From NCBI GenBank assembly GCA_963965975.1, contig OZ014412.1, positions 6,016,501 to 6,080,500 on the forward strand: a stretch of DNA of 64,000 nucleotides, written 5' to 3'. Numbering within the stretch: position 1 is the first letter of the stretch; every line of letters starts with the position of its first letter. A program made the translations under genes and the position numbers. Below are positions 679 to 61,914 of this stretch, one piece after another. This DNA is from Xestospongia bergquistia (taxonomy: Eukaryota > Porifera > Demospongiae > Haplosclerida > Petrosiidae). The notes under the pieces are model-generated. The model was not told where the DNA came from and did no database searches. It saw nothing but the letters and a program-made list of their open reading frames with translations.

Positions 679-3114
679 ATGAATATCAATTCTTATTGTC
701 TATTGCTCCTTTTGAAATGTGTTGTTATCACATGTATGTAAGTTATCAATGTTAGTTTTCTATTTTAAATGATGATTTTATTGTAGTATCATTTACAAGT
801 CTTAATCAAACATCTCCATTATATTCTCCTGTGTGTCTTGGAGATACTGTAGTATTCACTTGTATTGCTAGTGGTACTGGATCTGCTGTATGGAGAGGAG
901 ATAAAGAAACAGTTCGCACTTTATACAGTGGTATACTGTCTCAGGTTGTTGATAGCTTTACAGTGAGTGTTATAGAGATAAATGGCACAACAGTAGTATC
1001 TACTGCTACTGTTCAAACTGTCACATTACAATTAAATGGAGCTAGTATTAGTTGTTCTGCTAATTTACATGGTCCATACATTACACAGTCAATAAATATA
1101 GCAGGTAACTTTAGCTTAGTTATATTAAGTAACATATCATCTACTTACTTTACAGATCCACCGGATATAGTCAATAATGTGACTATTGTACCTGTTAATA
1201 GTACATCAGCTATATTGAGTTGGTCTCCAGGATATTACTGTGTAATGAACTATACTCTCACTGTACTCAGTAGTACTAACAATACAGATCAATATAATAC
1301 AAGTGATAATACTACATCAATTGTTATAAACTTTATAACAGGAGTACAATATTCATTTATTGTTATTGCAAGAGATAATGTTGAAAGAGTAGGACCTCCT
1401 AGTCAGTTATTAAACTATACTTGGGATGGTAAGATAAACAAGTATGTGTTATATAATGTTATAATTTATTAAAGTACCATCATTACAAGTTACAGATGTC
1501 ACTTTGTTTCCAATTTCAAATACTGTTACTGAACTAATTTGGATAGTAAGATAATTTTAAAATAATAGTACTAACTAAATATCTCATTCCTATTTACAGA
1601 CACTAATAGACATATCTCATCCTCCTATTTTATATTATATTGTGACAAATCCATTGACCAATACAGTTATTAATACTACTAATACCAGTGCTATTATTAC
1701 TGGACTAACTCCTGGTCAATATTACAATATTAATATCACAGCTGTTAATATCATTGGACCTGGTCCAGTACTTGTGATAAATGGTAAGTTAATATGATAT
1801 TGTACAGATATAGGTTGATAAACTTCCTTATATAGTTACGATACCACTAATAGTGACAAGTTCTTCTTCAGGTCAGTCCACAATATTCTGTATTAATTTC
1901 AATAAATATCTCCCATTGATCTTGAAACATTAACACTTAGTATTAATAGTTAGTTAATTTATTTTATCTATTATGTCAATTACTTGGAATTTAATAAAAA
2001 ATTATAAATAATACAAATATATTATATAAAACTGATTACATAATTAATTGTTTATTTATTACAGTTACTACTACTAAATCATTATCAATATACAATACTG
2101 TTATATCTACATTATCAACAACTGATACTACTAGTCTGACTACTACATATACAGGTATGTTAAATATAAGAGTAGAAAATATTACTAACGAAGATGTATG
2201 GACAGCTAATGTCAGTTCATTACAAAGACTTCAAACAAGTGGGTAGTGATCATTCTTACACATATATAAAATTAATTTAACTAGATAGCTATTATTTTAG
2301 ATTGTTTAGTTTATCAATAGGGATGATGTTATTAAACAAGATACTAATATACACACAAGTGCATTAAAATAATGTAAATCTAAGAGGTTTTACACACTGA
2401 AAGTTTGCTGACAAAATAACTACTTTCATTTATAAAGCTCTCAAAATATACTGACAAAAGGGGATACTTCATATCTATTGTGTTACCCAGATAATTGTCA
2501 ACATGATTTTAATTTTTTAAAATTAAAATATCTATGATCGGGGACAACTCTACACATCCTATATGTTAACAATAAGACCAAAACCTACCTATTACTATAG
2601 TCATAAATTAAATTCTATCTACTAACACTGTAGTACCTACAACATCATCTATACCTACTGTAACAAGTCCCCCTACTGATAGACCTAGTAGTGGTGAGTT
2701 ATATATTACTACTGTTGTTTAGTATCTCTCTTATATCTAGTGTTAAGTTATGGAGTTATTGCTGGTATTATTAGTAGTATTGTTATCTTACTAGTACTAA
2801 TAATAATTGTTATCTTAACTATTGTAGTAATCTTGATATATAAAGGTCAGTACTATATAGTATAGTGAGTTGTATTATTACCACTGTATGTATGTATGTA
2901 TGTCCTACTAGTGTCCAGTACTAAACAGAGTAGAGGTGAGACTAGTCCAGTGATAAAAGAGTTCTTCTCAGAGAAAAATGAAGCCTATGGTATAACTAGA
3001 GGATCAGATGATCAGTCACCAATTGAAGTAACAGAGAATGTAGCATATAGTACAATGGAACAACAACTATCACTTAATACTCCTCCAGTTAATGTTTATG
3101 AGACAATAAATTAA
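679..3114 (+). CDS. A1: Ig-FN3-FN3 receptor with class A tyrosine tail
   Basis: Ten exons: 679-737 region with donor at 734 (exon 679-733), 787-1104, 1156-1428, 1475-1545, 1600-1783, 1836-1871, 2065-2154, 2634-2693, 2741-2845, 2912-3114. They join to 465 codons (464 aa). Intron phase is 1 throughout except inside FN3-2 (phase 0). Signal peptide about 1-18; Ig about 20-124 with the FTC Cys, a VW Trp and the ISC Cys; FN3-1 about 125-215 (LSW); FN3-2 about 216-300; Thr/Ser stalk 301-362; TM about 366-395 (Ile/Val/Leu-rich); tail 398-464 with Tyr423 (NEAYG), Tyr443 (NVAYSTM, both NxxY and YxxM) and Tyr460 (VYETIN at the C terminus). Many N-x-S/T sites lie in the ectodomain. AATAAA follows the stop at 3121. 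Family motifs suggest PTB and SH2 binding (inference). Ligand unknown. Confidence 0.85.
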
Positions 3115-3679
3115 AATAATAATAAAGCAACTACTAATGTCTTAATTTAATTTTATGGTTAAATGACAGCATAGAAGGTATTAATTTTCATTAACAAGAA
3201 AATTGTTTCTTGCTACAAGAGTTGAAGTTGTTCACCTGGGTGGGTCTTGTACAATGAAAACAATAAGGATTTCACTACTTATAGGCCCTTTTCAATGTAT
3301 ACTGGTTGTATATAACTATATTGCTATATTTTTATGATGACAAGAAGCCAAAAAATGATCTATTGTTCATGGCTTCAATTAAAGTCATGAGTATATACTA
3401 TTTCAACTGAACTAATCTAATTAGTTTAATTAAAACAGTATCCATCTCTTGTTTATGGTTTCAAAAATTGGCAATAAACTACAAAGATTACTTTTTGGCT
3501 TCTCATTGTCTTTATATATATTAAGTTAGACTAGTTTTGGTTTTGTGGTAACTCACTATTGGGCAAACAACATATCAATGAAACTATGGTAACAAAGAGC
3601 ACGGTTAAAATGACAAAATGCAATTTTTAATGTAATTTAAAAACAAACATGTTACATTACTGAATTTTTTCCTAACACT
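3115..3679. other. Spacer after A1
   Basis: AT-rich spacer. AATAAA at 3121-3126 is a likely A1 polyadenylation signal. I see no gene in 3130-3679. Confidence 0.6.
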
Positions 3680-3898
3680 AAGTATACCAGTCAGTACGTT
3701 TATCTCTTCTCTATTAATTGCTGTTATTGCTACACTTATTTTTGATCTCATTATGATAAGGAGGAGCTACAATAAAGACACTCAATCCACTACTACTACC
3801 CAATGAAGTCTGATATATGATGATGATTAGTTACCAGAGACCTCCCAACAGAAAGAGATCATTGAATTACAAGGATACTGCTTATGGTTATGTATAGA
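3680..3898 (+). pseudogene. Class B TM/tail exon relic
   Basis: Clear copy of the class B last exon (IPVS...LLIAVIATL helix, Arg-Arg-Ser-Tyr, then the ITQLGxIYDD region). Codon CAA is followed by TGA where intact copies read TTA, and a second stop replaces the codon after YDD. The acceptor AG is also displaced. There is no upstream ectodomain, so this is an orphan exon between two class A genes. Confidence 0.8.
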
Positions 3899-4198: not shown

Positions 4199-6315
4199 AT
4201 GAACATCAATTCTTATTGTCTATTCCTCCTTTTGAAATGTGTTGTTGTCACATGTATGTAAGTTACCAATGTTATTTTTTATTTTAAATGATCATTTTAT
4301 TGTAGTATCATTTACAAGTCTTAATCAAACATCTCCATTATATTCTCCTGTGTGTCTTGGAGATACTGTAGTATTCACTTGTATTGCTAGTGGTATTGCT
4401 AGATCTGCTGTATGGAGAGGAGATAAAGGAACAACACGTGTTTTAGACAGTGTTACACATTCCGGTGTTGTCAATAGCTTTACAATAAATCTTACAGAAA
4501 TAAATGGTGATACAGTAATTTCTACTGCTACTGTTCAGACAGTCACATTATCATTGAATGGATCTAGTATTAGTTGTGGTAATGGAATAAATTCATCTTT
4601 AATGGAGCATGTTGTAATTTCAGGTTAGTGAGCCAATTTATAAAGAAATTAACCAAAACAATATTACAGATCCACCAGATATAGTCAATAATGTGACTAT
4701 TATACCTGTTAGTAGTACATCAGCTATATTGAGTTGGTCTCCAGGATATTACTGTGTAGTGAACTATACTGTCACTGTACTCAGTAGTACTAACAATACA
4801 GATCAATATAATACAAGTGATAATACTACATCAATTGTTATAAATTTTATAACAGGAGTACAATATTCATTTATTGTTATTGCAAGAGACAATGTTGGAA
4901 GAGTAGGACCTCCTAGTCAGTTATTAAACTATACTTGGGATGGTAAGATAAAATAAATAAGTATGTGTTATATAATGTTATAATTTATTAAAGTACCTTC
5001 ATTACAAGTTACAAACGTCACATTGTTTCCAATTTCAAATAATGTTACTGAACTAATTTGGATAGTAAGATAATTTTAAAATAATAGTACTAACTAAATA
5101 TATCATTTCTATTTACAGACACTAATAGACATATCTCATCCTCCTATTTTATATTATATTGTGACAAATCCATTGACCAATACAGTTATTAATACTACTA
5201 ATACCAGTGTTATTATTACTGGACTAACTTCTGGTCAATATTATAATATTAATATCACAGCTGTTAATATCATTGGACATGGTCGAGTATTGATAATAAA
5301 TGGTAAGTAATATAATATTGTACAGATATAAGTTGATAAACTTCCTTATATAGTTACAATATCATTAATAGTGACAAGTTCTTCTTCAGGTCAGTCCACA
5401 ATATTCTGTATTTTATTTTAATTAATATCCTCCATTGAACTTATAATAACAGGAACATTCAGTATTAATAGTTAATTAATTAATTTGTGGCTATTATATG
5501 TACTTGAAATTTAATCAATAATTTTTAAATTACACAAATGCAAAATGTAAACTTGATTACCTAATTAATTGTTTATTTATTACAGTTACTACTACTAAAT
5601 CATTATCAACATACAATACTGTTATATCTACATTATTAACAACTGATACTACTAGTCTGACTACCACATATACAGGTATGTTAAATATAAGATTGTTAAT
5701 GAAGATGAAGGAACAATTCTTTCAATTAAATCATCATGTTCAGAGACATCCCTATATAGTAATGCTACCAACAGCCTTATATATTAACAATAAGACCAAC
5801 ACCCACTTATTATTATAGTCATAAATTGAATACTATCTATTAACACTATAGTTTCTACAATATCATCTACACCTACCATAACAAGTCCACCTATCGATAG
5901 ACCCAGTAGTGGTAAGTTGAAATATACTATTGTTGTTTAGTATCTCTCTTATATCTAGTATTAAGTGATGGAGTTATTGCTGGTATTATTAGTAGTATTG
6001 TTATCTTACTAGTACTGATAATAATTATTATCTTAACTATTATAGTAATCTTGATATATAAAGGTCAGTACTATAGAGTTGTAGTATTACCACTGTATGT
6101 ATGTGTGTGTCCTACTAGTGTCCAGTACTAAACAGAGTAGAGGTGAGACTAGTCCAGTGATAAAAGAGTTCTTCTCAGAAAAAAATGAAGCCTATGGTAT
6201 AACTAAAGGATCAGATGATCGGTCACCAATTGAAGTAACAGAGAATGTAGCATATAGTACAATGGAACAACAACTATCACTTAATACTCCTCCAGTTTAT
6301 GAGACAATTAATTAA
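4199..6315 (+). CDS. A2: Ig-FN3-FN3 receptor with class A tyrosine tail
   Basis: Ten exons: 4199-4253, 4306-4623, 4670-4942, 4994-5064, 5119-5302, 5354-5389, 5586-5675, 5852-5911, 5959-6063, 6119-6315. The sum is 463 codons (462 aa), and every exon except the last has the same length as in A1. Same plan as A1: signal peptide, Ig with Cys/Trp/Cys, two FN3, stalk, TM and tail with NEAYG, NVAYSTM and a terminal VYETIN. The two ectodomains are near identical in FN3-1 but differ clearly in the Ig strands after the Trp and before the second Cys. The tail keeps a pure run of seven A (6179-6185) in frame. AATAAA at 6322. A recent tandem duplicate of A1. Confidence 0.85.
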
Positions 6316-6645: not shown

Positions 6646-8919
6646 ATGGAAGATTACACTGTAACATTAGTTTGTATTCTTGTCCTTGTTATAGGTGAGT
6701 TGATCTAGTAATTACAACATTAAATGTAATCATTTCCTTCATAGTCAAGACAAAAGCTTCAGTAACAAGTCTAGATTGCAGTCATGGAGTATGTCTACAG
6801 ACACAAGGAGCAATCACTTGTACAATAACAGGCATTCTAGCACATTGGTATTCTCCTCCATCCGATAGTACTCCCATTGCTACTGTAAGTTCTGGATTAG
6901 TTAGTAATATTGATAATTCTGGATTTACTGCTGCTTTTGTGAGCAATAATTCTGGACTAACAACTAATTTAAGTTTTACTGCCACTACTGATAAGAATGG
7001 AACACAAGTCAGGTGTAATGATGTAATAGATACAAACTCAATGACTTGTACTATTATGATATCAGGTATGTCACTAACAGTATCATATATAACTAACATG
7101 TACTATCATTATAAGGTCCTCCAAGTGATGCTCCTATAGGACTGGGTTTTATAGCTCTCACAAACACTTCAGTCACTCTTTACTGGTCACCTCTTACTCT
7201 TCATCCTAACTGTATAGTTAACTATACTGTTGAGATCAGGACAACCAGTGACAATATATTGATAAGTGGTCTTAGTACTGGTAGTAATATAACCAGTATT
7301 AATATATCCACTGGTCTCTCTCAGTCAGTAGAGTATCAGTACAGAGTAGTAGGATCTGATACTGTTAATAGATTAGGACCCTATAGTCAATATACAATGT
7401 TCACTTTAGATGGTAAGAACTAAATTATTTTAACCTTTTAAGCAGTGCTATTTTAGTTCTACAGGCTGTACCACTAATCACATATAATATCACAAAGAAT
7501 ACTGAGAACTACATTATTGTTATGATTTGGGAGGTAGATATTATTAATATCATAAATGAATCTAGTTTTCATTTAGTCTCCTCCTCTGTCCTCTCGTCCT
7601 CCTCTCTTGTATTATAAAGTCTATCACAATGTATCAGGTTCACTAACTGTTAATATAACTACTGTTACTAACATTACATTGACTGGAGTACTAGCTGGAT
7701 ATACCTACATTATAACAGTGGTACCAGTTAATATACTAGGAGATGGATACCCTAATAAGACTATAGGTTATTTAAATATTACTATAAAGTGTGTTATGAT
7801 TATCTCTCATGCAGTTATCATTCCTAAAGAACCAACAACATCCATTTTATTAGTATCTTCTGAATTTTATAGTAAGAATAGACAGTATAATCCTTAATTA
7901 TAATGTTAATTAAATATTAAATTGTACCAGTAAGAATATCCAGTACCTCTACAATAGTAAACAACAAGACATCAAATACTAGTAAGTACAATTTAATGTA
8001 TCATACATCTAATATTGTTAGTATATTCTGAGTATAGATGGTAATTACTAGTTCAGTGAAGTCTTTGTCATGCAATTACTCGACTTGGATTAAGGTCATA
8101 TAGACTACTTCATTAAATGATCAGTTATCTATATTGTAGATGCTTTTTTGAGTTCTTTTATATTGTTAATGTCTTCAACTGTTTATTCAAGTAAATTAAT
8201 AGTAAATTTATAATCCATTATAGCTAATGAAAATCAATAAACCTCATGTTTAACAGGTAACAAACAAATATGTTACATACTGAAGCAACTAACATCACAC
8301 TATCATCTTGTTTGTATTCTATGTACAACAGACTAATGTAAACTGATTTTTTTATTACTTATAATTCAAAGAAAACCATGTAATAATTACTAAAACTGCT
8401 ATATCAGTCATTGCTTCATAGACCTTGTTCTGAAAAAATATACAATGTTAATAGGTTCTGGGCAATATTTCGTGAGATATGTTACCTGCTAGTCCGGACT
8501 ATCCCTACATAGGCAATGCTGTATATATACTATCTGGTTGATATGTTGACTGTATATAGGATCCATGCCTACTATCACATTAGTACCTTCAGTATCATCT
8601 ACAGATAGACTTCATAACACTAGAGGTAGGCATATATATTATTAACTACTGTTGTTAACTATCTTTCTTATATCTAGTACTACGTGATGAAGTTATTGCT
8701 GGTATTATTATTAGTGGTGTTATCTCACTAGTATTAATAATAATTGTTATCTTAACTATTGTAGTAACCTTGATGTATAAAGGTCAGTACTATATAGTAT
8801 AGTGAGTTATACTATTACCACTGTATGTATGTGTGCGTGTCCTACTAGTGTCCAGTACTAAACAGAGTAGAGGTGAGACTAGTCCAGTGATAAAAGAGTT
8901 CTTCTCAGAAAAAAAATGA
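6646..8919 (+). CDS. CA: mosaic receptor, class C-like ectodomain on class A TM, tail truncated
   Basis: Ten exons: 6646-6694, 6745-7065, 7116-7412, 7457-7533, 7577-7766, 7815-7871, 7931-7981, 8560-8625, 8678-8782, 8849-8919. The sum is 428 codons (427 aa). Signal peptide 1-16; Ig about 17-123; FN3-1 to about 222; FN3-2 to about 311; stalk to about 369; TM about 372-402. Ig and both FN3 modules match C1/C3, while the last stalk, TM and tail exons match A1. In the tail exon the A run is eight bases (8909-8916). This shifts the frame to a TGA right after EFFSEKK, so the three tyrosine motifs (still present to 9046 in another frame) are not translated. It could be a natural short-tail receptor, a pseudogene in the making, or a sequencing error in a homopolymer. 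The 578-bp intron before 8560 contains decayed class B stalk exons. Confidence 0.75.
8224..8256 (+). pseudogene. Decayed class B stalk exon inside a CA intron
   Basis: 33 bp bounded by TAG and GT, aligning with the intact stalk exon at 52231-52263 but with an in-frame TAA. It suggests the CA 3' half was assembled next to, or replaced, a class B 3' half. Confidence 0.6.
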
Positions 8920-9046
8920 AGCCTATGGTATAACTAAAGGATCAGATGATCAGTCACCAATTGAAGTAACAGAGAATGTAGCATATAGTACAATGGAACA
9001 ACAACCATCACTTAATACTCCTTCAGTTTATGAGACAATAAATTAA

Positions 9047-9886: not shown

Positions 9887-11696
9887 ATGTTCTTATTATT
9901 TCAGTTTATTATTATTGTTGTTTCTCTTCAAGATTTGTCCTTAAGTAGATCATGCTCATTGTGATGATTTTATAATTAATTGTTTTTTGGATCTTTAGGT
10001 CTTCTATATCAAAGTTCTCCATCTTATTCTCCTGTATGTCCTGAAGATAATGTGGTCTTTACTTGTACCACAAACACTGGAATTGTCTCATGGGCAGATA
10101 ATTCTGATGGAACTGGAGCTCTGGGATTCTCTAGTTCTAATGCAATAGGACAACCACCAAGACAATTAGGAATATTTAAAATTGCCCTCATTAGTGTCAA
10201 TGGAAGCATGTTTGTATCAACAGCTACAGTAGATAATATAACATACAGTCAGTCATCTTCTAATATTTACTGTTCAGCAGATACTATAAACTACAATGAC
10301 ATGAATACACTAACTGTGAGAAGTAAGTTATGATCATTAAATGCAAGTGATATAATTGTTCTCTGTGATAAGATTTAAATCAAATTGGTTCACCTATTGG
10401 ATTATTAGCAGTAGCACTTGATAACAGTCAAGTCCAACTCACTTGGTCTCCACCATCTGATCACTCTATCTGTATTATTAAATACACTATCAGAGCTATC
10501 AATGATACTGGAGGAGATAAAACAGCTAATACCAGTGGAAATATGACAATATTTACAATAATGGAGTTATCATCAGGAAATGTGTATAATTTTAGTGTTG
10601 CTGGAGTAGATAAGAGAGACATCATTGGATTATTTAGTAAACCAGTAATAATTGATTTATCAGGTAAATAATTTGATTGTATAATTTAATTTGATGTCAT
10701 GCATATAGTTCCAGATCAAGTTATAGATCTTCAATATAATATTACTTACATTGGATCAAATAATGTTAATATCACTGTGTACTGGAATGTAAGTTATATG
10801 TTGTTATATCAGTTATTACCGGTCTATTTTCTTTAGTCACCTTTGACCTCATATCGTCCTTATATAACACATTATAATATCTATCATAATACCTCCTCTA
10901 TTATATCACATGATACAACAATACTGACTTATTATGTATTGTCCAATGTTCCTATTGGCCACACCTACTTTATTAGTGTGTCTAGTGAGAATGTAGTTGG
11001 AGAGGGAGACAATGATACCATATATGGTAATGTGTTATTAATGAGTAATGACATTACTTTGACTATTCACATGATTAATTACTTTATGGTTTCTTGATTT
11101 TCCTATATAGTATATCCAACTATAGCAATAATACCAACTAGTATTACAAGTAAGATATTAACTAGATGGTCATTTATATATGAATTACTTATAATGTTAG
11201 ATATTATCACGTTTCAAATTGCTAAATCAATTATAAGGTATTACAATCATTTTTATCACTTTGTATTTCATTAGGTGTCTTGTTTACACTAATAATTACT
11301 ACCAGTACTATTACATCAACAATGTACACACAAAGTACATTAGTATATAGTACTGTTATATCTACATCATCAACAACTGATACTTCTTGTGTGACATTAT
11401 GTACAGCTGGTATGTTAAGTAAATTCAATACATACAAAATTTATGTTTACTTCAACACAGTTACTATACCGGTCAGTATGTTGTTCTCTTCTCTATTAAC
11501 TGCTGTTATTACTACACTTATTGTCTGTCTCATTATGAGAAGGAGGAGCTACAACAAAGACACTCCACCCACTACTACTACCAAATTAGGTCCAATATAT
11601 GATGATGTTAAGTTACCAGAGACCTCAGAACAGAAAGAGATCATTGAATTACAAGGAAATACTGCATATGGATATAACAGACAGAATATAACATAA
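9887..11696 (+). CDS. B1: Ig-FN3-FN3 receptor with class B tyrosine tail
   Basis: Eight exons: 9887-9944, 9999-10322, 10373-10663, 10709-10788, 10837-11026, 11111-11149, 11275-11409, 11461-11696. The sum is 451 codons (450 aa). Signal peptide about 1-19; Ig about 20-127 (FTC, VSW, YC); FN3-1 about 128-224; FN3-2 about 225-314; Thr/Ser stalk about 315-372 containing one 17-residue TTSTITST...QSTLVY unit; TM about 378-398; stop-transfer RRRSY; tail to 450 with Tyr419 (PIYDDVKL) and Tyr442/Tyr444 (NTAYGY). Unlike other class B tails it ends YNRQNIT rather than YIN, through a small 3' change. The class B TM and tail share one exon, unlike class A. No CTCAACCCAC motif upstream. Confidence 0.85.
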
Positions 11697-11849: not shown

Positions 11850-14091
11850 ATGTTGATGAGAAGATGGAGCCTTTCAGTAACACTAGTGCTGAATATATTA
11901 TCATGTAAAACTCAAGGTAAAGCATCTATATATAATGATCAATTGACTTATATACACTTGCTATAGTTAGTCTAGAACAGACATCTCCTTCTTACTCTAC
12001 TGTATGTCCTGGAGATGATGTAGTTTTCACTTGTAATGTCACTGGTAATATACTGATATGGGACTATTATGGACAAGCAAGAGCATACCTGGCTGGTAGT
12101 TCAAGTGAGACAGTTCTTGGTGGCTTTAATATTAGTCTTATTAGTATAATGAATGGAGTGATTAGATCAGAATCTAGACTTCAACATGTTACATCTAATG
12201 ATAATGGTAGAAATATAAATTGTACTGATACTAGTGCAGTACGACATCAGGCTACAGTTATAGTTGCTGGTAAGTTAGCATGACATAACTAATTGATATT
12301 AATTATTAATTACTATATAGATATTCCCTCAAGTCCACAAAATGTTACTTTCTCTTCTCTCAATTCATCATCTCTCATATTACACTGGTCAGTACTATTG
12401 GAGAGTGGACACTGTATAGTTAACTACAGTGTTAAAGTGAACAATACTTGGCAACAATTAGTAACTACTAGTACTTCAGTAGTAATAAGTGGTCTATCTG
12501 TTGACTCAATATATGAGATTATAGTAACTGGAAGAGACAGTGAAGGAAGACAAGGAGTTAACAGTGACTTACTAACTGTTACATGGGATGGTAAATGATA
12601 CACTAACTTACTATTATGTTATCTGATATATCTAGTACCTCTACCAGTTATAATATTAAATGTTACTACTACTTATGAGGGATTATTAACAACTATTAAC
12701 ATATTCTGGGAGGTATGATACATCTATCATTAATGTACATTAACTATTATGTAGTCAAATATTGATACTTCAAGACCATCAGTTCTGTACTATATAATAT
12801 CTCATAATATTAATGGAGGAAATATCACTATAACTAATATGACTAGTATTGTCTTCACTTATATCACTATTATACCTGGAGTATATGATATTAATGTATC
12901 TGCTGTGAATATATTGGGAGAAAGTCTACAGAGAAATGCAGCAGGTATAATTCTTCAATAATTATTATATTAATTGTATAATACTTTTTAGTGAATATTG
13001 ACATTAACTTTGTCAGTACTACTAAATCAACAGGTATTTATAAAATATTAAATGAACAGTTAATCTAGTAGATTAAATGAAATTTTAACTGTTTTCTGCT
13101 CGTTATCTCTAGAATATAGCACTATTGGTTATACATCATTAGTGACTTCATATAGTAAGTAAAAATTTTATTTCTACTCAAATGAAGTAGCTATTAATCG
13201 TTTTTAAGTTGATGAATTGGGATAATAATCTTCCTTATGGTTTATTATAGGACGTTTATAGATTAATGATATCATTTATAATTATTATAGTTATAATACA
13301 AACAACAATGAAAAAAGTGACAAGCTCTTCATCAGGTCTGTTAAAGTATCAATACTGACACACTTACCACCAACATGATATATACAATAAACCCTTGTAT
13401 TACAATTACAAACAATCAAGATTAACTATATATATATATATATATATACATACATGCATGAGAGACTAATCAGTTTTGGTAAGATATTTCATGTTTTCTA
13501 TTACAATAATGTCAATAGATATTCTAGGCCTTCCTTATATACCTGTATAGACAGTGTTATACCCTCTGCCCAATATTATGATTATAGGACTCACACCTAA
13601 TACCACAGTAGTATCTTCAGTCCTTGCTACACCTACTGAAACAAGTTCTCCCTGGAAGAGACCTAGTGGTGAGTTATAAATTACTGTATATTTTTATTCA
13701 CTATCTCTTTTAAACATATATAGTATTAAGTGATGGAGTTATTGCTGGTATTATTATTAGTATTGTTATCTTACTAGTACTAATAATAATTGTTATCTTA
13801 ACTATTGTAGTAATCTTGATATATAAAGGTCAGTACTATATAGTATAGTGAGTTGTACTATTACCACTATATGTATGTGTGTGTGTCCTACTAGTGTCCA
13901 GTACTAAACAGAGTAGAGATGAGACTAGTCCAGTGATAAAAGAGTTCTTCTCAGAAAGAAATGAAGCCTATGGTATAATTAAAGGATCAGATGATCAGTC
14001 ATCAATTGAAGTAACAGAGAATGTAGCATATAGTACAATGGAACAACAACCATCACTTAATACTCCTCCAGTTTATGAGACAATAAATTAA
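11850..14091 (+). CDS. A3: Ig-FN3-FN3 receptor with intact class A tail, divergent ectodomain
   Basis: Eleven exons: 11850-11916, 11967-12269, 12321-12590, 12636-12712, 12755-12944, 12992-13033, 13113-13154, 13291-13335, 13588-13668, 13724-13828, 13895-14091. The sum is 473 codons (472 aa). Signal peptide 1-22; Ig about 23-123 (FTC, IWD, NC); FN3-1 to 213 (LHW, Tyr/Leu core); FN3-2 to 302; four small stalk exons to 372; TM about 376-405; tail 408-472. The ectodomain is the most divergent of the class A genes, but TM and tail are nearly identical to A1/A2, consistent with tail homogenisation by recombination. The A run in the tail is interrupted (GAAAGAAAT), which keeps frame. The gene starts only about 150 bp after the B1 stop. 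Confidence 0.85.
13424..13450. repeat. (TA)n microsatellite
   Basis: About 12 TA dinucleotides within the intron before the last stalk exon of A3. Confidence 0.85.
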
Positions 14092-17240: not shown

Positions 17241-17367
17241 AGCCTATGGTATAACTAAAGGATCAGATGATCAGTCATCAATTGAAGTAACAGAGAATGT
17301 AGCATATAGTACAATGGAACAACAACCATCACTTAATACTCCTCCAGTTTATGAGACAATAAATTAA

Positions 17368-44990: not shown

Positions 44991-45742
44991 TATACTATAT
45001 CTATAAGTATAATTATGACACACATTCAGATCACAAACAATCATAGCATTATTAATATGGAAAAAAAGCAATTTAGAAAAATTAAATGAGAAAAATTGCA
45101 CTGAAATAGACTTAGAATTTAAGCTATATTATATCACACTTACCAGCTGTTATATTGTAAATGATATGTTCAGATCACAAGTAATCACGGTATCATAAAC
45201 ATGAAAAGAAAAAAGCAATTGAGTAAATAAGTGAAGACATTGCATTGAATTACACTTACATTACTTGAATTTCTATTACATTATAATCACACTTTCAAAC
45301 TATTATATTGCAAATAAGACGTTCAGTTAAAAAGTAATCATGGAAAGAAAAAAATGTAAACATTATGTTACACTGTAGCTAATCCTTATTTTTGTCTCAT
45401 GTATCACTACTTTAACATCTACACTCTCTGACTTTGTTAAGTTACATATTATTGTTGTTAATGTGTAAAGAGTTGACAATTGTCATAGTAAACATAATGA
45501 AAAACAAGGGATAAAAATTGAATTTTTATTATCCACAACTTTTCCTTAAGCTTACACACAAAGCTAGCTTCTGACTACCAAATAAAATCTTTTAAAAGAA
45601 ATTATCATATACTATTATAACACCATATAAAATAATTTGATTAAAATTGTGGGTATCTGTATTTTGAAGAAGGGTATATCAGTTCTATATACTTTAGAAC
45701 TGATAAAATAAAACTGATCAAATCGTCTGACAGACAATACAC
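44991..45742. other. Spacer with dispersed repeats
   Basis: Contains three copies of an ATTCAGATCACAAGTAATCA-type unit (45025, 45170, 45315) and a block with TTTTTGTCTCATGTATCACT (45390-45480) that recurs at 46990 and 48685. No gene seen. Confidence 0.55.
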
Positions 45743-46410
45743 TTTACACTTTACATATGATACATATACATATACATATGGTACACTTTACATATGATAC
45801 ATATACATATACATATGGTACACTTTACATATGATACATATACATATACATATGGTACACTTTACATATGATACATATACATATACATATGGTACACTTT
45901 ACATATGATACATTATACATATACATATGGTACACTTTACATATGATACATATACATATATATATGGTACACTTTACATATGATACATATACATATACAT
46001 ATGGTACACTTTACATATGATACATATATATATACATATGGTACACTTTACATATGATACATATACATATATATATGGTACACTTTACATATGATACATA
46101 TACATATACATATGGTACACATTACATATGTTACATATACATATATATATGGTACACTTTATATATGATACGGTACACTTTACATATGATACGTATACAT
46201 ATACATATTGTACACTTTACATATGATACATATACATATACATATGGTACACTTTACATATGATACATATACATATAGATACATACATATACATATACAT
46301 ATGGTACACTTTACATATGAACATATACATATAGATACATACATATACATATGGTACACTTTACATATGATACATATACATATACATATGGTACACTTTA
46401 CACATGATAA
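45743..46410. repeat. 37-bp minisatellite, about 17 units
   Basis: Unit TACACTTTACATATGATACA plus TATACATATACATATGG; spacing of GGTACAC is 37 bp at 45780, 45817, 45854. Units near 46165 and 46280-46345 vary in length. The unit is rich in CATATG palindromes. The ORFs here are products of the repeat. Confidence 0.95.
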
Positions 46411-48805: not shown

Positions 48806-49130
48806 AAATCTAGTAGCGGTAAGTTATATATTACTATTGATGTTAGTATCTTTCTTATATCTAGTATTAAGTGATGGAGTTGTTGCTGGTATTATTATTA
48901 GTATTGTTATCTTACTAGTACTAATAATAATTGTTATCTTAACTATTGTAGTAATCTTGATATATAAAGGTCAGTACTATATAGTATAGTGAGTTATACT
49001 ATTACCACTGTATGTATGTATGTGTATCCTACTAGTGTCCAGTACTAAACAGAGTAGAGATGAGTCTAGTCCCGTGATAAAAGAGTTCTTCTCAGAAAAA
49101 ATGAAGATCTATGGTATAACTAAAGGGTAA
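48806..49130 (+). pseudogene. Class A 3' relic (stalk end, TM, tail)
   Basis: Stalk remnant 48806-48816, open TM exon 48865-48969, tail exon from 49036. The A run is six bases (49096-49101), shifting the frame so the tail ends at TAA 49128 after IYGITKG. Class A homology then stops, so NVAYSTM and VYETIN are deleted. No ectodomain. Confidence 0.75.
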
Positions 49131-50679
49131 GATCAGATAATATTATTGAATCTATTCTATAGCACGATTTTTAATAGGAATTATGTTTTTTTTAAAAAGT
49201 ATGAACAAGTTGCAAATCACAGTTGAAAAAGTTTTCAATCACATTTCCTATTTATAAATTAGTGAGATAATTGTGTATGATACTAGAAATTAAAGAGTGA
49301 ACTATTTGATTTGTCAAATGTATATTTTAATCAAATGATTCTAGAACAATGCAAGAACATGTAACCATATGTATAGTGAATGAAAGGACACAAATATAAT
49401 AATATTTAACACCATTTATTTCTATAATTAAGGGATCGTGTTATTAGCCAATAATATTAGTCAGTATTTTAAGTAGCATGATACATGTGTAAAAGTTCTT
49501 GTGATAAACATGTGTTAACTAACATATGTACTCATTTCCTCTATAAATAACATAAACTTATATAAAACAAAGAGAGGTATCTTTATAATATAATATTGTT
49601 TTAAAAGTGAAATACCATATTAAAGATGATAATATGGGATGTCAACAAAGTAATAACATTGTGTTATTCATTTGAAATATTTCTACTTATATGTACATCA
49701 ATTATAATATGGAATTGATGTGTTACTATGTTTGGTTATATTTTGACACCCTATATTGTATTTATTCTGTATTTTTGTACATCTAACAACATCCACACAA
49801 ACCTTCTTAATTATAACATGTGGTCTATTCAGTTTACATTAATTATCAAAACATATGTACTTCATTTCCTTTATAACCAACAAAATATAATATACAGTGT
49901 AGGAAAGGTGACTTTACAATATTATGTTTAAAAAATTATACATAAATGAGATGACAATGTGAAAAGTAAGCAAAGTAGAGATTTGTTGCACTACATCATT
50001 CCAATTAAAAATTCCTATACAAGTAGCAACTATTTTAGTGATAATATAACATCATATAAGTCTCATGTAGAGATTGGTATATGGGAGTTGTGTCATTAAA
50101 AAAAATCCTTACCTTGTTATGTTTACTTTTTGTTATTGTCCAGTTCACTACATGTTCATTCATTTTTAAAAGTGATTTTCATTTACTTGTTTCCAAACTT
50201 TATTCATTGATCATATTATTATGTTAAGTGATATAATAGCATAGAAAATATGAAAGTCTTATTTGACATTTTACAGTAACTAATGACACACTAAATGATA
50301 CTGTTTCCTCAAACTAAATAACCAAGATTTATCAAGGCTTATCAGGAACATGGTAGCAGCACCTACATATGTAGGAATGGTACAGAATTATTCTTTGAAA
50401 TGTATTTGCAGGAAACAATAAATATATCACTCAAAACTGATTAATGCTCAAATCTAGTCATTAATCATGTGAACATTTCATAAATTATCAACATCAGAAC
50501 ATATTGGGGATGAAGAATTCAGCTGTGCACTACATAACAGTAATTATTGCTACAAAGGATATCTCAGCAAAATATATAACCATTAACTTTAATAGCAAAT
50601 TAAGCCTACAATATACCTAAGCATTGACAAATTGACATTTACATTCAAATCCCGCCCATTTATTAGTTTCATAGTTATT
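49131..50679. other. Spacer before psiCB
   Basis: AT-rich. Dispersed CATGTGGTCTATTCAG repeat copy at about 49780-49925. No gene seen. Confidence 0.55.
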
Positions 50680-52531
50680 ATGTATGCCCTGTTGACTCTA
50701 CTTCTTTCTACTCAAGGTAATGTAATATTCTTGGTTTTCATTGCTTAAAATATTTGTAGTGTGTTCTCAAGTAATATCTTTAAACTGTCCTAATGAAGTG
50801 TGCCCTTTGGAACATACTGAATTGACATGTCATGTCAATGGAAATTGATGCAGTGGTATCACAGTGGAACTGGACTTGGAATAATAATAGCTTTAATCAG
50901 CTCAACTCACACTTTTACAACCCCAGATTTTACTGCCACTTTTATCAACTATACCAATGTGTCTGGAATGTGGACTATGTTAAGTTTTACCGCTACTACT
51001 AATAAAAATGGAACAATAGTTCAATGTCGTGATTTAACAGTTGCAAGTTTACCATCAAATTGTACAATACTAATATTAGGTATGAAATGACTTATATCAA
51101 AATATCACTAGATCTATATATCATTTTAAGATCCTCCAAGTAATGTTCCTACAGGACTGGGTTTTACAGCTCTCACAAACACTTCAGTCACTCTCTACTG
51201 GTCACCTCCTACTCTTCATCCTAACTGTATAGTTAACTACACTGTTGAGATCAGGACAACCAGTGATAATGTATTGATCAATAGTTTTAGTACTGGTAGT
51301 AATATCACCAGTATTAATGTATCTACTGGTCTCTCTTAATCAGTAGAGTATCAGTACAGAGTAGTAGGGTCTGATACTATCAATAGATTAGGACCCTATA
51401 GTCAATATACTGTGTTCACTCTGAATGGTAAGAAGTAAGCTATTATTTTAACCTCTCAAGTTTTACTAATTTTTTAGTTCTACAAGCTGTGCCACTAATC
51501 ACCTATAATATTACAAATAATACAGAGAATTACACTATTTTTATAATTTGGGAGGTATATATTACTATTTACAATAACTGAGTCTAGTTTCCTTTAGTCT
51601 CCTCCTATTTCCTCTTGTCCTCCTCTCTTGTACTATAAAGTCTATCACAACATATCAGGTTCATTAACTGCTAATATAACTACTGTTACTAACATTACAT
51701 TGACTGGAGTACTAGCTGGATATACCTACATTATAACAGTGGTACCAGTTAATATACTAGGAGATGGATACTCTAATAAGACTATAGGTTATTTAAATAT
51801 TATTATAATTTTTTTTAATGATTACTTCTTATACAGTTATCATTCCTAAAGAACCAATAAATACTAGTGTTGTAACAACTACAACTATAGTCATTACAAG
51901 TGATACATCAACTATTAGTAAGTACAAAATGGTAATCATTTTTTTACTATTAAGGTGTTTGTTTTAATTATTTGCTTAGACAGTGACAGTATGTTCACCA
52001 GTAACTACTACTGTTTATCCAAGTATGTCTTCACTACTATATAGTACAATTAGGTATATTTCTATTATAGCTAATGTAAACCAACAAACATCATACTTAT
52101 CAGGTAATTTATAAAACAAACATGTATAGTAAGATACTTTTTTATTATTTCTACAGTAGCCATAACTTCAAATGTTTGTCCAAGTAAGCTAACATTAAAA
52201 CATAATAATACAATTGTATTTCCATTATAGCTAATAAAAGACAACAAACATCATGTTTATCAGGTAATAAACAAACATGTTACATTACCAAATTATTTAC
52301 TTTACAGTGAGTATACCGGTCAGTATGTTCCTCTCTTCTCTATTAACTGCTGTTATTACTACACTTATTGTCTATCTCATTATGAGAAGGAAGAGCTACA
52401 ATAAAAACACTCCACCCACTACTACTACCCAATTAGGTCCATTATATGATGATGTTAAGTTACCAGAGACTTCAGAACAGAAAGAGATCATTGAATTACA
52501 AGGAAATACTGCTTATGGATATATTAATTAA
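50680..52531 (+). pseudogene. psiCB: mosaic receptor pseudogene, class C-like ectodomain with class B tail
   Basis: Exons: 50680-50716, 50760-51079, 51131-51427, 51478-51554, 51598-51787, 51837-51917, 51984-52022, 52071-52103, 52157-52183, 52231-52263, 52308-52531. Signal peptide MYALLTLLLSTQ; a divergent Ig (LTC, QWY, QC) with a one-base frameshift near 50845; FN3-1 with TAA replacing Gln near 51339; FN3-2 intact; stalk built from two tandem copies of an exon pair; intact class B TM and tail (LYDDVKL, NTAYGYIN). Two lesions make it a probable pseudogene. The intron after 51787 is 49 bp here against 48 in paralogues. Confidence 0.8.
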
Positions 52532-55246: not shown

Positions 55247-57212
55247 TTAATTAATATATCCATAAGCAGTATTTCCTTGTAATTCAATGATCTCTTTCTG
55301 TTCTGAAGTCTCTGGTAACTTAACATCATCATATATCAGACCTAATTGGGTAGTAGTAGTGGGTGGAGTGTCTTTATTGTAGTTCCTCTTCCTTATAATA
55401 AGATAAAAAATATATGCACTAATAACAGCAGTTAATAGAGAAGACAAGATGATACTGACTGGAATACCAAATGTGAACAATAATAAACAATAAAATAATG
55501 ATGTCATATATTTAATATACCTGTACATGATGTAGTATCAGTTGCTAACACAAAAGTACTATCTATTAATGAAGTCACAGTACACTGTGTATATGTTGAT
55601 GATGTAGTACTTAATGGATGTAAAATGAGAACATCTAAAACAAATGAGTGAATTTAATAATGAAATAATTAATACAATAACTCAATAATATATATGAACT
55701 AGTATTTCACACAATGTATCAATATTAAAAGACTCAGTATTTAAGACTTGATATGACTCCATATGTTAGCAATGTAAATTAGGGAATAAAATGTTAATAA
55801 TATGTTTATTTTTGTGCTAAGTAGTTAATAACATAGTATACTATTGGTAGTATAATACTTACTGACCTGTTAATGAAATATCAGTAGTTATTAATGAATC
55901 TAAAAAATATATAATTAGTAGAGAAAGTAATTTTTGCAGATTGTTTATAGTGACTACAGTAAAAATACACATATTATCTTCAACATTGTTCTCTTAACCT
56001 GCTTCTACTAGCCAATCTAAGTAATAGTCCTTCTTAAAACATAGTAATATAATTACATCGTGTACTCCAACATCAAATTAGTAACACATTATTAAATAGT
56101 TCTATTAATTCACTTACTAGGTAGAATAAATTGATGATATATATGTGTATGTTCCTAAATTAATAATTTAAAACCAGAGTTACTAATAACAATTTACCTG
56201 TAGCCATAATACTAGTGAAAGATCCTGTTACTAGTTTATTAACAGCTGGTACACTGATGATATAAGTATGTCCTAGTTGTGATCCATTAAATATGATACT
56301 TGTATTGTTAGTTGCTAATGACATAGACTTGTTACTGATATTATGTATTACTGAATAGTACTCAACTGATGGATATGATGTATTGTCAATATGCTAATAA
56401 TGAAATATAATAGTTAATATAATGAAATATAAATGAACCATACATTCCACAATATTGTCTAAATTTGTGACGCTGACTCTAAATCCTTTCACCAAAGGAG
56501 GAACTATGAATATTATGATTAAGAAAATATAATAAGTTATGACAAATTACATACCATTCCATATAACCTTTAAAGTAAGACTTATATTTCCACTTCTATT
56601 ACCACTATATTTCCCATTACATAAAACACATAGACAAAACCAAGAGATCTATTATCTATCAGTAGTGATGTAATGTTATCAGTTGTATACAGTACTTTTG
56701 TAGTATTAATATCAATTATATAATTTGTAATACAGATAGCATTCTGTTGTGGTAGTGACCAAGTTAGTAAAAGGGAATGTGTATTGATTGCTCTGAATTC
56801 AAGATCTAATGGAGACCTAGGAACATCTGTGGCCATAGACTACATTATTGTCATCAGATTATTTGTACCTTACCTCTAACAGTGACTGTAGCTGTGACTG
56901 GTTGACTCACTACATCAGAACAATTAATCCTCTTACCATTGTCTGATGGAGTTACTGGTGTATTCAATATAGCTTGACTACATACTGTTGACTGATTTCC
57001 ATTAACAAATATTAATATGAAACTTTGAAATAAAATAGGATAAGGAACCAATTTAGTAATGTCAGTGATGTTTGTAAATATTACTGCACTGACTTTACTA
57101 TCAGTGGGATCAGACCATTTAAGAAATCCAGTACCAACTGTTTTACAAGTGAAGATTAGTTCATCTCCTGGACATAACAGACCAGTATGTGGTACAGTTT
57201 GTTCTAAAATGA
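55247..57212 (-). pseudogene. psiB3: inverted class B receptor, headless, two frameshifts
   Basis: Minus-strand exons in order: 57212-56874 (Ig, open, 113 codons: LLCPGDELIFTC, FLKW, RINC), 56826-56555 (FN3-1, one base short), 56503-56444 (FN3-2 first half, 60 nt against the usual 77), 56393-56198, 55899-55867, 55634-55521 (stalk), 55458-55247 (TM and tail). The tail is intact: IYDDVKL, NTAYGYIN. There is no signal exon, because homology breaks at about 57290, where a + strand fragment begins. The usual acceptor of the last exon is lost (CACATTTG), but an AG three codons in (ATTCCAG) would keep frame. Confidence 0.75.
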
Positions 57213-57291
57213 CTAAAGAGGAATTCTTGGAATTAATATGCTAACTGTAATAATGATGATACTTTTTGACTCAGTAAACATTAAGCAAGAT

Positions 57292-57902
57292 ATCAGCAGT
57301 AGTACTTAATAACAGTCAAATCCAACTCACTTGGTCTTCATTACCTGATCACTCTATCTGTATTTTTAAATACACTATCAGAGCTACCAGTGATACTATA
57401 GAAGATAAAACAGCTAATACCAGTGGAAACATGACAATATTTACAATAATGGAGTTATCATCAGGAAATGTGTATAACTTTAGTGTTGCTGGAATAGATA
57501 AGAAAGATATCATTGGATTATTTAGTAAACCTGTGATAATTGATTTATCAAGTAAGTAAGTTGGCTGTATAATTTAATTTGTATAGTTCCAGATCAAGTT
57601 ATAAACCTTCAACATAACATTACTTACATTGGATCTAACAACATTGATATCACTGTGTACTGGAATGTAAGTTATGTTTGTTATATCAATTATTATTGGT
57701 TTATTTTCTCTAGTCACCATTGACCTCATTATATTGTCCTAATATAAAACATTATAATATCTATCATAATACCTCCTCTATTATATCACATGATATAACA
57801 ATACTGACTTATTATTTGATGTTCCTATTGGCCACACATAGTTTATTAGTGTATCTTATGAGAATATAGTTGGAAAAGGAGACAGCAATACCATATATGG
57901 TA
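57292..57902 (+). pseudogene. psiB4: class B FN3 fragment
   Basis: Starts inside FN3-1 at the ISAVVLNNSQIQLTW codons without Ig or signal exon. FN3-1 is open to 57551; the first FN3-2 exon is 57589-57668; the second (57715 on) is frameshifted near 57820. It ends at the exon 5 donor, and no stalk, TM or tail follows. Closest to B1/BA. It abuts the inverted psiB3 head to head. Confidence 0.75.
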
Positions 57903-58708: not shown

Positions 58709-58794
58709 AAAGACACCACCTTCATAAATAAGTCTATTCATTATATTACAATATCATAAGTTAATGATCCATTTAGTCTACCAACATAGTCAAA

Positions 58795-61700
58795 ATGGAT
58801 AAGTGTACTACAACATATTTGATTTCTCTTCTCTTACTTATCATAAGTGAGTTAATATATTATAACACAATATTTGTAGTTTATTTCTTATAGTGAAAAT
58901 AGAAGCTTTAGTTATAAGTCTAGACTGTAAAGTATGTCCACAGACACAAGGAACCATCACTTGTACAATTACAGACAGTATAGCAGCTTGGTATTCTCCT
59001 CCATCAGGTAGACATCCAATTGCTACAGTAAGTTCTAACAAGGTTTATAATGGTCATAATACTGGTTTCACTGCTGCTCTTGTGAGTATTAACAATCCTG
59101 GAATAACAGCTAATTTAAGTTTTACTGTCACTACTGATAAGAATGGAACACAAGTCAGGTGTGCTAGTAGTAATGGTGGCATGGATATAAACTCAATGAA
59201 TTGTACTATTATGATATCAGGTATGTCATTAACAGTATCATATATAACTAACATGTACTATCATTATAAGGTCCTCCAAGTGATCCTCCTACAGGACTGA
59301 GTTTTACAGCTGTCACAAACACTTCAGTCACTCTTTACTGGTCACCTCCTACTCTTCATCCTAACTGTATAGTTAACTACACTATTGAGATCAGGACAAC
59401 CAGTGATAATATATTGATCAGTAGTCTTAGTACTGGTAGTAATATCACAAGTATTAATGTATCTACTGGTCTCTCTCAGTCAGTAGAGTATCAGTACAGA
59501 GTAGTGGGGTCTGATATTATTAATAGATTAGGACCCTATAGTAAATATGTAAACTTTACTCTGGATGGTGAGAACGGAATAATTTTAATATTTAACTAAT
59601 GCTTCATTAGTTCTACAGGCTATACCACTAATTACTTATGATATTACAAAGAATACAGATAAATATACTATTGTTCTTAATTGGGAGGTATATATTATTG
59701 TCTTAATATTGTTAATCTAGTTTCATTTAGTCACCTCCTCTCTCCTCTCGTCCTCCTCTCTTGTACTACAAAGTCTATCACAACATATCAGGTTCACTAA
59801 CTGTTAATATAACTAATGTTACTAACATTACATTGACTGGAGTACTAGCTGGATATAACTACATTATAACAGTGGTACCAGTTAATATACTAGGAGATGG
59901 ATACCCTAATAAGACTATAGGTTATTTTAATATTATTATAAAGTGTGTTATGTTTACTTCTCATACAGCTATTATTCCTGATAAAGAACCAGTTATTACT
60001 AGTGTTGTAATAACATCATCTCAATATCATAGTAAGAGTACTTAGCATAAAAATATTATTCAGGTTAAAAACAATCACATCACTAAGTATACTTAGTACA
60101 TTGTCTACAACTATAGTCATGACAAGTGATACATCAAATGTTAGTAATTGTACAATAATGTATTTAATGTTACTGTCATACTTAACTTGTGATGAAGTAT
60201 AGAAACTACAAGTACTTCAATGTCTTCATTACAAATTACAGCTGAGACAATTACTGCATCCTCAAACTTAGCTAGTAGGTTCTGTGTATTTTGAAAAAAG
60301 TTTAACAAAAAAGTTTTTACTTGTACATATAATGAATATATAATTTATAGTATTTTCATATATATCAGATTCTACTAATATCTTTTAAAGTTCATTTCCT
60401 ATAAATAATCTAACAACTGTTAATTTAATTATTCTAATAAAATTAACTATTTCTACTTTAACAGTCACTACATCATCATCATCATCATCATCAGTTGGAA
60501 TATATTATGTTATTGGTGTTGTTGGAGGTATTATTGTTTTCATACTAATTGTTGTAGTACTAGTTCTAACTGGTTGTATAATGATTAGAAGACAAAATAA
60601 AAGTGAGACTCTCTAGTAATTTCTTGATGCTTTAAACTCTCAATATAGATAACAAACCAAGTGGTAGTCCATTAACTGTTTCTCTGAGGTAAGCTAATAC
60701 AGTCATATGTGTTAACAGTTCAATGACCATACTTTAGAAGTATCAAAGACAATAACATAGAAGAGGTATAATATTGTTACTTACATGTATAAAGATAAGA
60801 ACAGGAATCAAGTTTCAAATTCTATACAATACCTACACAATAAATTATATAAGATATAACATTTATTTGATATCAAAGTGAACATTAAACTTACTATTAG
60901 TTGTAACACATTCAAGTCAATCTAATGTCAGGAGTTAGTCATCATTCCTTTAATTAAAATTATTAATTAATAGTCACATCCGGTCTTTATTAATTTCATT
61001 ACAGTTATCTTCAAATCCCATCTATTCTGAAGTAAACAAGAAACCACAACCTTTATCTCTAAAACTTGATGAAGCTCCTCCTACAATATCACCTTACTTA
61101 GCTGATGATGACCAGCCACCTCCTATACCTCTGTTCTATGGAGGAGATGAACCTCATGTACCTCCTTATAATGGACCTGTGACAGCTCAGTATTCTGAAA
61201 TCAAGAGAAACGATATGGCACCTCATGTACTACTTCATACTAGTACAGTATATCAAGGAGATTATTCAGTACTAAAGAGAGATGACATACCTAATGTACC
61301 ACTGCATAATGTGACAGCTGGAGGAGACTACTCTGTCATAAGTAGAGATGTTACTCCTCGTGATGCAGCAGCTGGAGGTGAGTATTCTGTCTTAAAAAGA
61401 GAAGAGAGAGAGGTTAGTTAATTATAGGTTGACAATCATAGTCTAATATTATTATAGAGCAGAGAAAATAATTCTCAGTTACAACAGACTGGTTTGTATT
61501 CAACTCTAAATAATGAAGTAAGAGATAATACAGTCTACTATATCATAATAACTTACATTATATTAGATAAACAAACCAATTGGAGCCAGAGCTGAGCGAA
61601 AAGGAGCTGGAGGTATAATATATGATAAACTAGGTAGTGTTCCTATGAATAGTCCAATGGCACCTCCTACGTCAAATTTAGATCAGTCTATTATCTACTC

Positions 61701-61914
61701 TGATAACAAGGCACCAACTGATCTTAATAAGGTATTACATGTCATGATACATCAATGTTGCTATAGTTACAATTTTCTTCTTTGTCACTAGCAGAGACTC
61801 TCTACAAGAGGTGCTATGATTCAGGCTCAATTAGGAGAACCACAACTTCTACGACATCTTCCTAAGGCTGATACCAAGAAGGTTCCCATGGTAGTGGAGG
61901 ACAGTCAACAATAG
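58795..61914 (+). CDS. C4: class C receptor with the longest tyrosine tail
   Basis: Exons: 58795-58846, 58894-59220, 59271-59567, 59611-59687, 59731-59920, 59969-60031, (60093-60149 probably skipped), 60465-60602, 60649-60688, 60738-60765, 61005-61412, 61458-61517, 61567-61731, 61792-61914. Without the stalk cassette exon the sum is 656 codons (655 aa). Domain order as in C1. The Ig RC...NC spacer is 13 residues, the longest in the cluster. Tail motifs: IYSEV, QYSEI, DYSVL, DYSVI, EYSVL, LYSTL, IIYDKL (ITIM form) and IIYSDN, with PPPIPLF between. Two extra 3' exons add about 75 residues ending VVEDSQQ; in C1, psiC2 and C3 this end is deleted. The stalk exon at 60093 has lost its proper acceptor (one-base shift), and including it would give a stop. 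Confidence 0.85.

Follow-up and report, generated by a model that had tools for sequence, protein, structure and literature searches.

The Alr receptors of Hydractinia are, in the passages available, clustered single-pass members of the immunoglobulin (Ig) superfamily with many paralogues and presumed pseudogenes (PMC11067881), and Alr candidate genes carry immunoreceptor tyrosine-based activation or inhibitory motifs (ITAM or ITIM; PMC12065747). The FcoR family of Botryllus is described there as having a V-type Ig ectodomain, 53 loci and tails with an ITIM, a hemITAM or a bare Yxx[ILV] motif, with motif swapping through alternative splicing at some loci (PMC12065747). Here we describe a window of 64,000 nucleotides, the whole stretch analysed, from the sponge Xestospongia bergquistia (C2:6016501-6080500; C2 is one of 21 contigs of a 146.46-Mb genome), which holds a cluster of receptor genes encoding a signal peptide, one Ig domain, two FN3 domains, a stalk, a transmembrane (TM) segment and one of three tyrosine-bearing tails. 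By analogy, Hydractinia Alr, Botryllus FcoR and the vertebrate paired receptors are the nearest known systems that we found.

The likeness to each is one of description, for the published systems as the available passages present them. With Hydractinia Alr the sponge family shares clustered single-pass Ig-superfamily receptors, many paralogues and (in Alr, presumed) pseudogenes and an invertebrate host, but it combines a single V-type Ig domain with a pair of FN3 domains and with tail modules of three exchangeable kinds. With Botryllus FcoR it shares a V-type Ig ectodomain, large size and tails with tyrosine motifs; FcoR, however, has sushi and C2 Ig domains where the sponge genes have FN3, and its motifs differ by locus, allele or splicing, whereas here distinct genes carry distinct tail exons. 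Vertebrate paired receptors (CEACAM, Siglec, FcR-like, CD300) likewise place similar ectodomains on opposed tails and evolve rapidly. In these, activating members often signal through an adaptor and a charged TM residue; in the sponge family, by contrast, all three tails carry tyrosines of their own. The family is distinct from these systems in its V-FN3-FN3 ectodomain, its three self-contained tail modules and its visible record of tail replacement. The open-licence passages found for ITIM/ITAM-type or Ig/FN3 receptors of sponges, Porifera or Amphimedon describe no such locus (PMC11999971, PMC12065747, PMC9505182, PMC2248247, PMC12723187); as sponge candidates for self/non-self recognition they name aggregation factors as well as Ig-domain kinases or adhesion molecules (PMC11999971, PMC2248247).

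Near-identical ectodomains on different tails

An earlier sequence-only reading of the window had proposed at least fifteen genes or pseudogenes in about 61 kb. The family proves larger: 21 receptor units (copies or fragments) with the plan given above lie in the window, and 70, including these 21, in a 255-kb stretch (C2:5895001-6150000) obtained by joining the window to 200 kb fetched around it (191 kb of it new). In seven of the 21 (G1, G2, G4, G5, G8, G12, and G19) every exon that was located is intact; the others are frameshifted, stopped or fragmentary. Full spliced models were obtained for G1, G4, G5, and G12, and the shared plan of signal peptide, one Ig, two FN3, stalk, TM and three tail types that had been proposed is indeed present, with GT/AG splice sites. 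What did not stand is a single type of ectodomain, since the Ig exons, assigned to clades by nearest reference exon, fall into at least six: alpha, beta, gamma (with a divergent gamma2), delta (with delta2), epsilon and zeta. Three further Ig-like exons on the minus strand fit every clade poorly.

G1 (679-3114 of the window, plus strand), an alpha gene with tail A, is complete, with 10 exons (679-733, 787-1104, 1156-1428, 1475-1545, 1600-1783, 1836-1871, 2065-2154, 2634-2693, 2741-2845, and 2912-3114), GT/AG borders throughout and one open frame of 464 amino acids. Its exons encode, in order, the signal peptide, Ig, the first FN3 (FN1), the second FN3 over two exons (FN2a and FN2b), three stalk segments, TM and tail. 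Ectodomain exons begin and end in phase 1, the split FN3 excepted, and can therefore be exchanged without loss of frame.

The sharing of ectodomains between different tyrosine tails, also claimed by the sequence-only reading, is seen directly at up to 93-95% identity over three ectodomain exons: G1 and a gene with tail B at C2:5955238 are 95% identical in Ig, 94% in FN1 and 93% in FN2b. The neighbouring units L035_3021 (tail C) and L035_7419 (tail B) are 89% identical in Ig and 88% in FN1. Two alpha genes, one with tail C (C2:5908160) and one with tail B (C2:5918418), are 94.6% identical over 980 bp and lose their similarity 9 bp past FN2b, and in three cross-tail comparisons of gamma DNA the main match breaks off near the end of FN2b, at points from about 40 bp short of it to 120 bp past it, followed by one or two weaker matches of short length. 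Highly similar ectodomains on different tails, in clustered genes, strongly support a paired-receptor architecture, and the comparison with paired receptors made earlier is apt.

G1 also retains a probable trace of how its tail was acquired. It matches two alpha genes with tail B over 614-1899, then carries a stalk-TM-tail block of type A, and matches them again over 3632-3891 (plus strand), a decayed B-type TM and tail exon with internal stops and 78-88% DNA identity to the B tails of these two genes. About 0.5 kb of intron and stalk of the tail B genes is absent from G1, which argues for replacement and not for a clean insertion. In the simplest reading, the A block would have replaced the segment between the G1 ectodomain and an older B tail, which then decayed; a decayed B tail behind a live A tail points to tail exchange. 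Across the 255 kb, a broken B tail lies at most 1.5 kb downstream of 5 of 22 A-tail pieces (some of which are halves of one tail), and no ectodomain in that stretch is followed, within its unit, by intact tails of two types.

All loci scanned together gave 81 units, 40 of which are intact in Ig as well as in the first tail exon, other exons being broken in some. Among these 40, alpha occurs with all three tails, gamma with B or C and gamma2 with A or B; delta is joined to A, and delta2, beta, epsilon and zeta are each joined to B. The combinations gamma-A, in G3 (6745-9046, plus strand; exon snapping, signal exon not found), and beta-A, in G6 (14940-17367, plus strand; exon-by-exon scan), occur as well, each with a 1-nt frameshift in a run of A at the start of the tail. 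Exchange extends into the ectodomain, as G6 is beta from Ig through FN2a and then alpha-type in FN2b, and three delta2 genes combine a delta FN1 with a gamma FN2b. On a quick tree of 41 ectodomains (Ig and FN1; the program warns of long branches), the tail label changes 13 times, compared with a minimum of 2 and a mean of 15.2 after shuffling, a count as low being reached in 23 of 200 shuffles. A single clade for the seven C tails among 22 gamma rows is rejected (approximately unbiased test, p-AU 7e-6), as is one for the B tails among nine alpha rows (p-AU 2e-5).

The run of A at the start of tail A is 3 to 8 long (8849-8920 and 17170-17240 of the window, and also C2:6065574), and in three of nine pattern-matched copies its length puts the reading frame out before the tail tyrosines are reached. 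Assembly error and decay are possible causes of these breaks, as is a slippage-prone switch that would yield tail-less receptors.

The tails themselves showed no significant similarity to one another, in a comparison that is weak because each profile held 3-4 sequences; within this limit, the result agrees with the earlier claim of three unrelated tail types. Tail A carries EAYGIT, VAYSTM, and PVYETI, and tail B carries PIYDDV and TAYGYI. Tail C has five to seven motifs of the form Yxx-hydrophobic and a proline-rich stretch: PVYAQV, [TA]QYSEV, three [GE][DE]YSV[ILV] repeats, LYSTL on an extra exon (in G8, G9, G12, and G19), and VYDEV on a last exon seen in G9 only, with a stop at that place in G12. 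Its five main tyrosines are invariant across the four window copies. We take TAYGYI and TQYSEV to fit the form of an immunoreceptor tyrosine-based switch motif, and YSTM the form bound by PI3K. Among 27 B exons, 23 of 105 tyrosines (those of the TM counted in) stand in TxYxx[VI], and in nine C tails 49 of 80 stand in Yxx[ILVM]. In the A tails of the window YSTM is followed by YETI with 11 or 13 residues between; owing to the methionine in the first motif they do not match the ITAM pattern Yxx[LI]-x6-12-Yxx[LI], and YSTL, YNTL or YSTI stands at that place in 3 of 18 A tails. A PDB search with tail C gave no match. Tail A is also found at the end of another architecture (L037, C2:292001-300500), behind exons that Pfam assigns to I-set Ig and FN3, and there carries an added DVYDNI motif.

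The Ig domain and the diversification of its loops

The domain names of the sequence-only reading were compared with Pfam. For FN3 they held, with FN1 of beta, gamma and delta passing the fn3 cut-off; alpha FN1 missed it narrowly (24.6 bits, cut-off 25), and FN2b of gamma, at 18.7 bits, lay below it. For Ig, Pfam gave sub-threshold matches for alpha and delta and none for two gamma, one beta and one epsilon exon, so that the label rests on structure prediction for alpha and on a profile match for gamma. The AlphaFold2 model of alpha Ig is confident (predicted local distance difference test, pLDDT, 87; predicted TM-score 0.78), matches V domains of T-cell receptors and antibodies, and has the B-F cysteines and tryptophan of a V-type fold; alpha Ig is accordingly a predicted V domain. 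Gamma-type and alpha-type Ig match in a profile-profile comparison (hhalign probability 95, E 1.8e-8; probability 67.5 with the smaller, window-only alignments), and a PDB search with gamma Ig gave no significant match.

Diversification was most extensively analysed in 18 gamma genes. The nonsynonymous rate (dN) exceeded the synonymous rate (dS) in 126 of 153 pairs for Ig, compared with 25 of 153 for FN1. Tree-based counts gave a dN/dS of 1.46 for Ig (codon bootstrap 1.02-2.18) and of 0.65 for FN1, 0.79 for FN2b, 0.83 for tail C, 0.53 for the signal exon and 0.34 for tail B (n = 10), and the counted nonsynonymous/synonymous ratio differed between Ig and FN1 (Fisher p 4e-5). In codon models, for which omega was obtained with our own M0/M1a/M2a code and not with a validated program, M2a was favoured over M1a for gamma Ig (likelihood ratio test 68.0, p 2e-15), with 19% of codons at omega 4.0. 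For gamma FN1 (omega 0.61; FN2b, 0.63) no selected class was found with M2a (p 0.13), although six FN1 codons still pass 0.95. Eleven of the 12 gamma Ig codons above 0.95 fall in three stretches equivalent to the BC, C'-C'', and FG loops (hypergeometric p 1e-5), stretches that were drawn after the counts and on the same data. They were then tested on alpha and delta, in which nonsynonymous density was 3.3 times higher inside them for alpha Ig (0 of 105 rotations as high) and 2.8 times for delta Ig (three genes; 0 of 101 rotations). With loops defined from the structure the alpha ratio was 2.15 (3 of 104 rotations as high). In the stretches drawn on gamma, and with epsilon left aside, the signal was weak in gamma2 (11 of 109 rotations as high), zeta (13 of 106) and the genes classed as other (19 of 103). 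A class of gamma Ig codons with omega 4, mostly in stretches resembling complementarity-determining regions (CDRs), would fit positive selection. The gamma intron between the hypervariable Ig exon and FN1 hardly differs between copies (mean distance 0.034), with introns further down at 0.34.

Extent of the family, its neighbours and candidate SH2 readers

The window opens with a B-tail piece (307-440) that belongs to a unit starting upstream and is not counted among the 21. All units lie on the plus strand except G17. Behind G1 follow G2 (4199-6315; alpha with tail A, its located exons intact by exon snapping, the first short stalk exon not located by scanning), G3, G4 (9887-11696; beta with tail B, a complete 8-exon gene), G5 (11850-14091; delta with tail A, a complete 10-exon gene), G6 and G7 (18219-20718; a broken beta ectodomain with tail B, by exon-by-exon scan), in which a stalk exon is inflated by a tandem repeat with a 51-bp period (TTSTITSTMYTQSTLVY-like unit, 19406-20472). 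G8 (21875-24534; exon snapping) is gamma with tail C, intact in its located exons, its last tail exon not being located. After a tail B fragment (26268-26369) comes G9 (28467-31221), gamma with tail C including the LYSTL and VYDEV exons and with a 1-nt frameshift in Ig; it was modelled to FN2b and its later exons were placed by eye. Fragments of tail A (31579-32023; stalk, TM and broken tail) and tail B (35245-35409) precede G12 (36243-39017), gamma with tail C, whose spliced model has 12 exons and, in its last exon, a TGA where G9 has VYDEV. Next are a tail B fragment (40952-41029), a gamma Ig-FN1 pseudogene (44327-44927) and a TM-tail A pseudogene (48867-49169); an array of a 37-bp tandem repeat (45671-46342) lies between receptor fragments. 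G16 (50845-52528) has a gamma-type ectodomain, with a stop codon inside FN1 and Ig found in part only, and tail B, and G17 (55250-57219, minus strand) an epsilon ectodomain with a 1-nt FN1 frameshift, and tail B. A beta FN1-FN2 fragment (57296-57898), G19 (58795-61517; gamma with tail C, located exons intact by exon snapping, one stalk border not set and the last tail exon not located) and a tail B fragment (63495-63572) complete the window.

The family spans at least 255 kb and recurs elsewhere in the genome. Searches for the tails used single-protein queries and accepted E values up to 1; the counts are lower bounds, and one tail can yield two matches. At least 94 matches were obtained for tail A, on nine contigs and with a dense cluster at C2:0.28-0.38 Mb, at least 82 for tail B, of which two lie outside C2, and at least 22 for tail C, all on C2.

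Proteins that could read such tails are also encoded. The genome has 81 SH2 matches, and seven single open frames have the order SH2-SH2-protein tyrosine phosphatase (PTP), a count taken from positions and frame lengths: C7:8318067-8319560, C3:916188-917681 and five within C3:1265457-1283528. Both frames that were read (L039 and L040) are SH2-SH2-PTP by Pfam, L040 matching SHP-2 at E 1e-196; one further frame is interrupted by a stop, and another is a PTP piece. Vertebrates have two SHP genes, encoding SHP-1 and SHP-2 (PTPN6 and PTPN11), compared with these seven open single-frame copies. Judged from sequence, the SHP class, a candidate reader of the tails, is present and multiplied. The SHP2-like single-frame genes lie mostly in a tandem cluster and a set in separate exons occurs at C6:199640-201523, which hints at expansion by retrocopies. 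The order SH2, SH2, kinase at C5:8.492-8.494 Mb suggests, from positions only, a Syk/Shark-type kinase. Ten SH2 and kinase pairs in single frames of 398-500 amino acids stand in tandem, again by position only, at C6:1621395-1697212.

Apart from these, a peptidase C1 exon array was noted at C9:1502757-1523415, one unit of which was read and is cathepsin-type. Peptidase C1 has 76 matches in the genome; three were read, two as whole frames and one in separate exons, and all are cathepsin-type with GSCWAF, so that a check for silicatein found none among these three.

Competing explanations and what the family may mean

The reading that we favour, with a probability of about 0.6, is that of clustered, germline-encoded type I paired receptors whose ectodomains and tails are recombining modules. 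The membrane-distal V-type Ig domain would bind a ligand, presented by the two FN3 domains and the Ser/Thr-rich stalk, and the tail tyrosines, once phosphorylated, would recruit SH2 proteins. Ectodomain and tail, as separate exon modules behind phase-1 introns, would be recombined through duplication and exchange, so that one binding specificity could be wired to tail A (YxxM and YETI), B (YDDV and TAYGYI) or C. We infer that the ectodomain-tail joins are transcribed and the tails phosphorylated; tail C would most likely recruit SHP and be inhibitory, and tail A would most likely be of PI3K type, activating or mixed. Signalling of the paired kind is plausible, as is a part in immunity or allorecognition; ligand binding by the V-type domain may serve to recognise self/non-self or microbes. 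A fuller version, in which a germline V-domain repertoire with positively selected CDR-type loops, three exchangeable tails and expanded SHP readers forms a KIR/LILR-like and possibly early-branching self/non-self system, is offered tentatively, at less than even odds.

Several results weigh against this reading. Strict ITIMs ([SILV]xYxx[ILV]) account for only 6 of 80 tyrosines in the nine C tails and 3 of 67 in 18 A tails, and in tail B they are likewise few; the earlier description of tail C as ITIM-like therefore holds for its string of Yxx-hydrophobic motifs but not in the strict sense, and it is to be taken loosely. A single clade for the A tails within nine alpha rows is not rejected (p 0.125). 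The AlphaFold2 model of gamma Ig has a pLDDT of 41, so that the gamma fold is not directly confirmed. The codon-model mean omega of gamma Ig is 0.97, not different from 1 (versus 1.46 counted), gamma FN2b also shows a signal of positive selection (p 8e-5), and recombination among copies, which is plainly present, can inflate the M2a result for gamma. The proportion of nonsynonymous differences in Ig exceeds the distance of four pooled introns in 44 of 125 pairs only; the pooled introns lend no support to selection on Ig because the FN1-FN2a and FN2a-FN2b introns are 0.34 apart, compared with 0.03-0.07 beside Ig. In delta2 there is no loop excess (ratio 0.60; 73 of 105 rotations as high). Alpha Ig shows no positive selection (M0 omega 0.35; M2a p 1 and 0.59 in two runs), as is also the case for alpha FN1 (omega 0.40; M2a p 0.97), and synonymous change is raised in its loops too, so that the alpha pattern may stem from recombination of old loop variants.

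The alternatives are not all mutually exclusive and their odds do not sum to one. The one that survives best, a possibility we hold well short of even, is a special case of paired receptors in which the ligands are microbes or symbionts and not allogeneic cells, as in phagocytic receptors or CEACAM-like decoy pairs. Vertebrate paired receptors such as the CEACAMs are discussed in published abstracts as pathogen receptors, and within one genome the V-domain loops differ from paralogue to paralogue, which implies breadth; the sequence, however, gives microbes no preference over self ligands. That these are adhesion or tissue-patterning Ig/FN3 receptors, expanded in copy number and signalling through SH2 proteins in development without a self/non-self role, we consider unlikely. 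This genome is very rich in FN3 exons (2143 candidates, 150 of them scored), and on C5 and C10 some lie a few kb or less from PTP matches, but loop-focused diversification, the high load of pseudogenes, repeated tail change and dozens of copies would be unusual for structural adhesion. Equally improbable is a mostly neutral process of birth-and-death and exon shuffling in a tandem array, leaving tails without opposing functions: the near-random distribution of tails over the ectodomain tree and the many fragments and frameshifts are what it predicts, yet the B tails of the gamma genes are under purifying selection, the main tail-C tyrosines do not vary between window copies, and Ig and FN1 differ in their counted substitution ratios. 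Collapsed or switched haplotypes in the assembly could mimic tail swaps and frameshifts, and the A-run breaks do resemble homopolymer error or slippage, but such an artefact is very improbable given that in many copies, and at separate loci (C2:2.8 Mb and 5.9-6.15 Mb), the change of tail falls close to one and the same exon border, and that G1 retains its decayed B tail.

Under the paired-receptor reading, the family supplies named candidate receptors, candidate readers in the SHP cluster and defined loops for work on ligand binding. If the tails do signal oppositely, activating/inhibitory paired-receptor logic would be a general solution beyond vertebrates and tunicates, and here its genetic mechanism, the capture of tail modules, would be visible, with the decayed remains of another tail as its record. 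If this is true for the sponge, it would bear on how sponge cells distinguish self from non-self.

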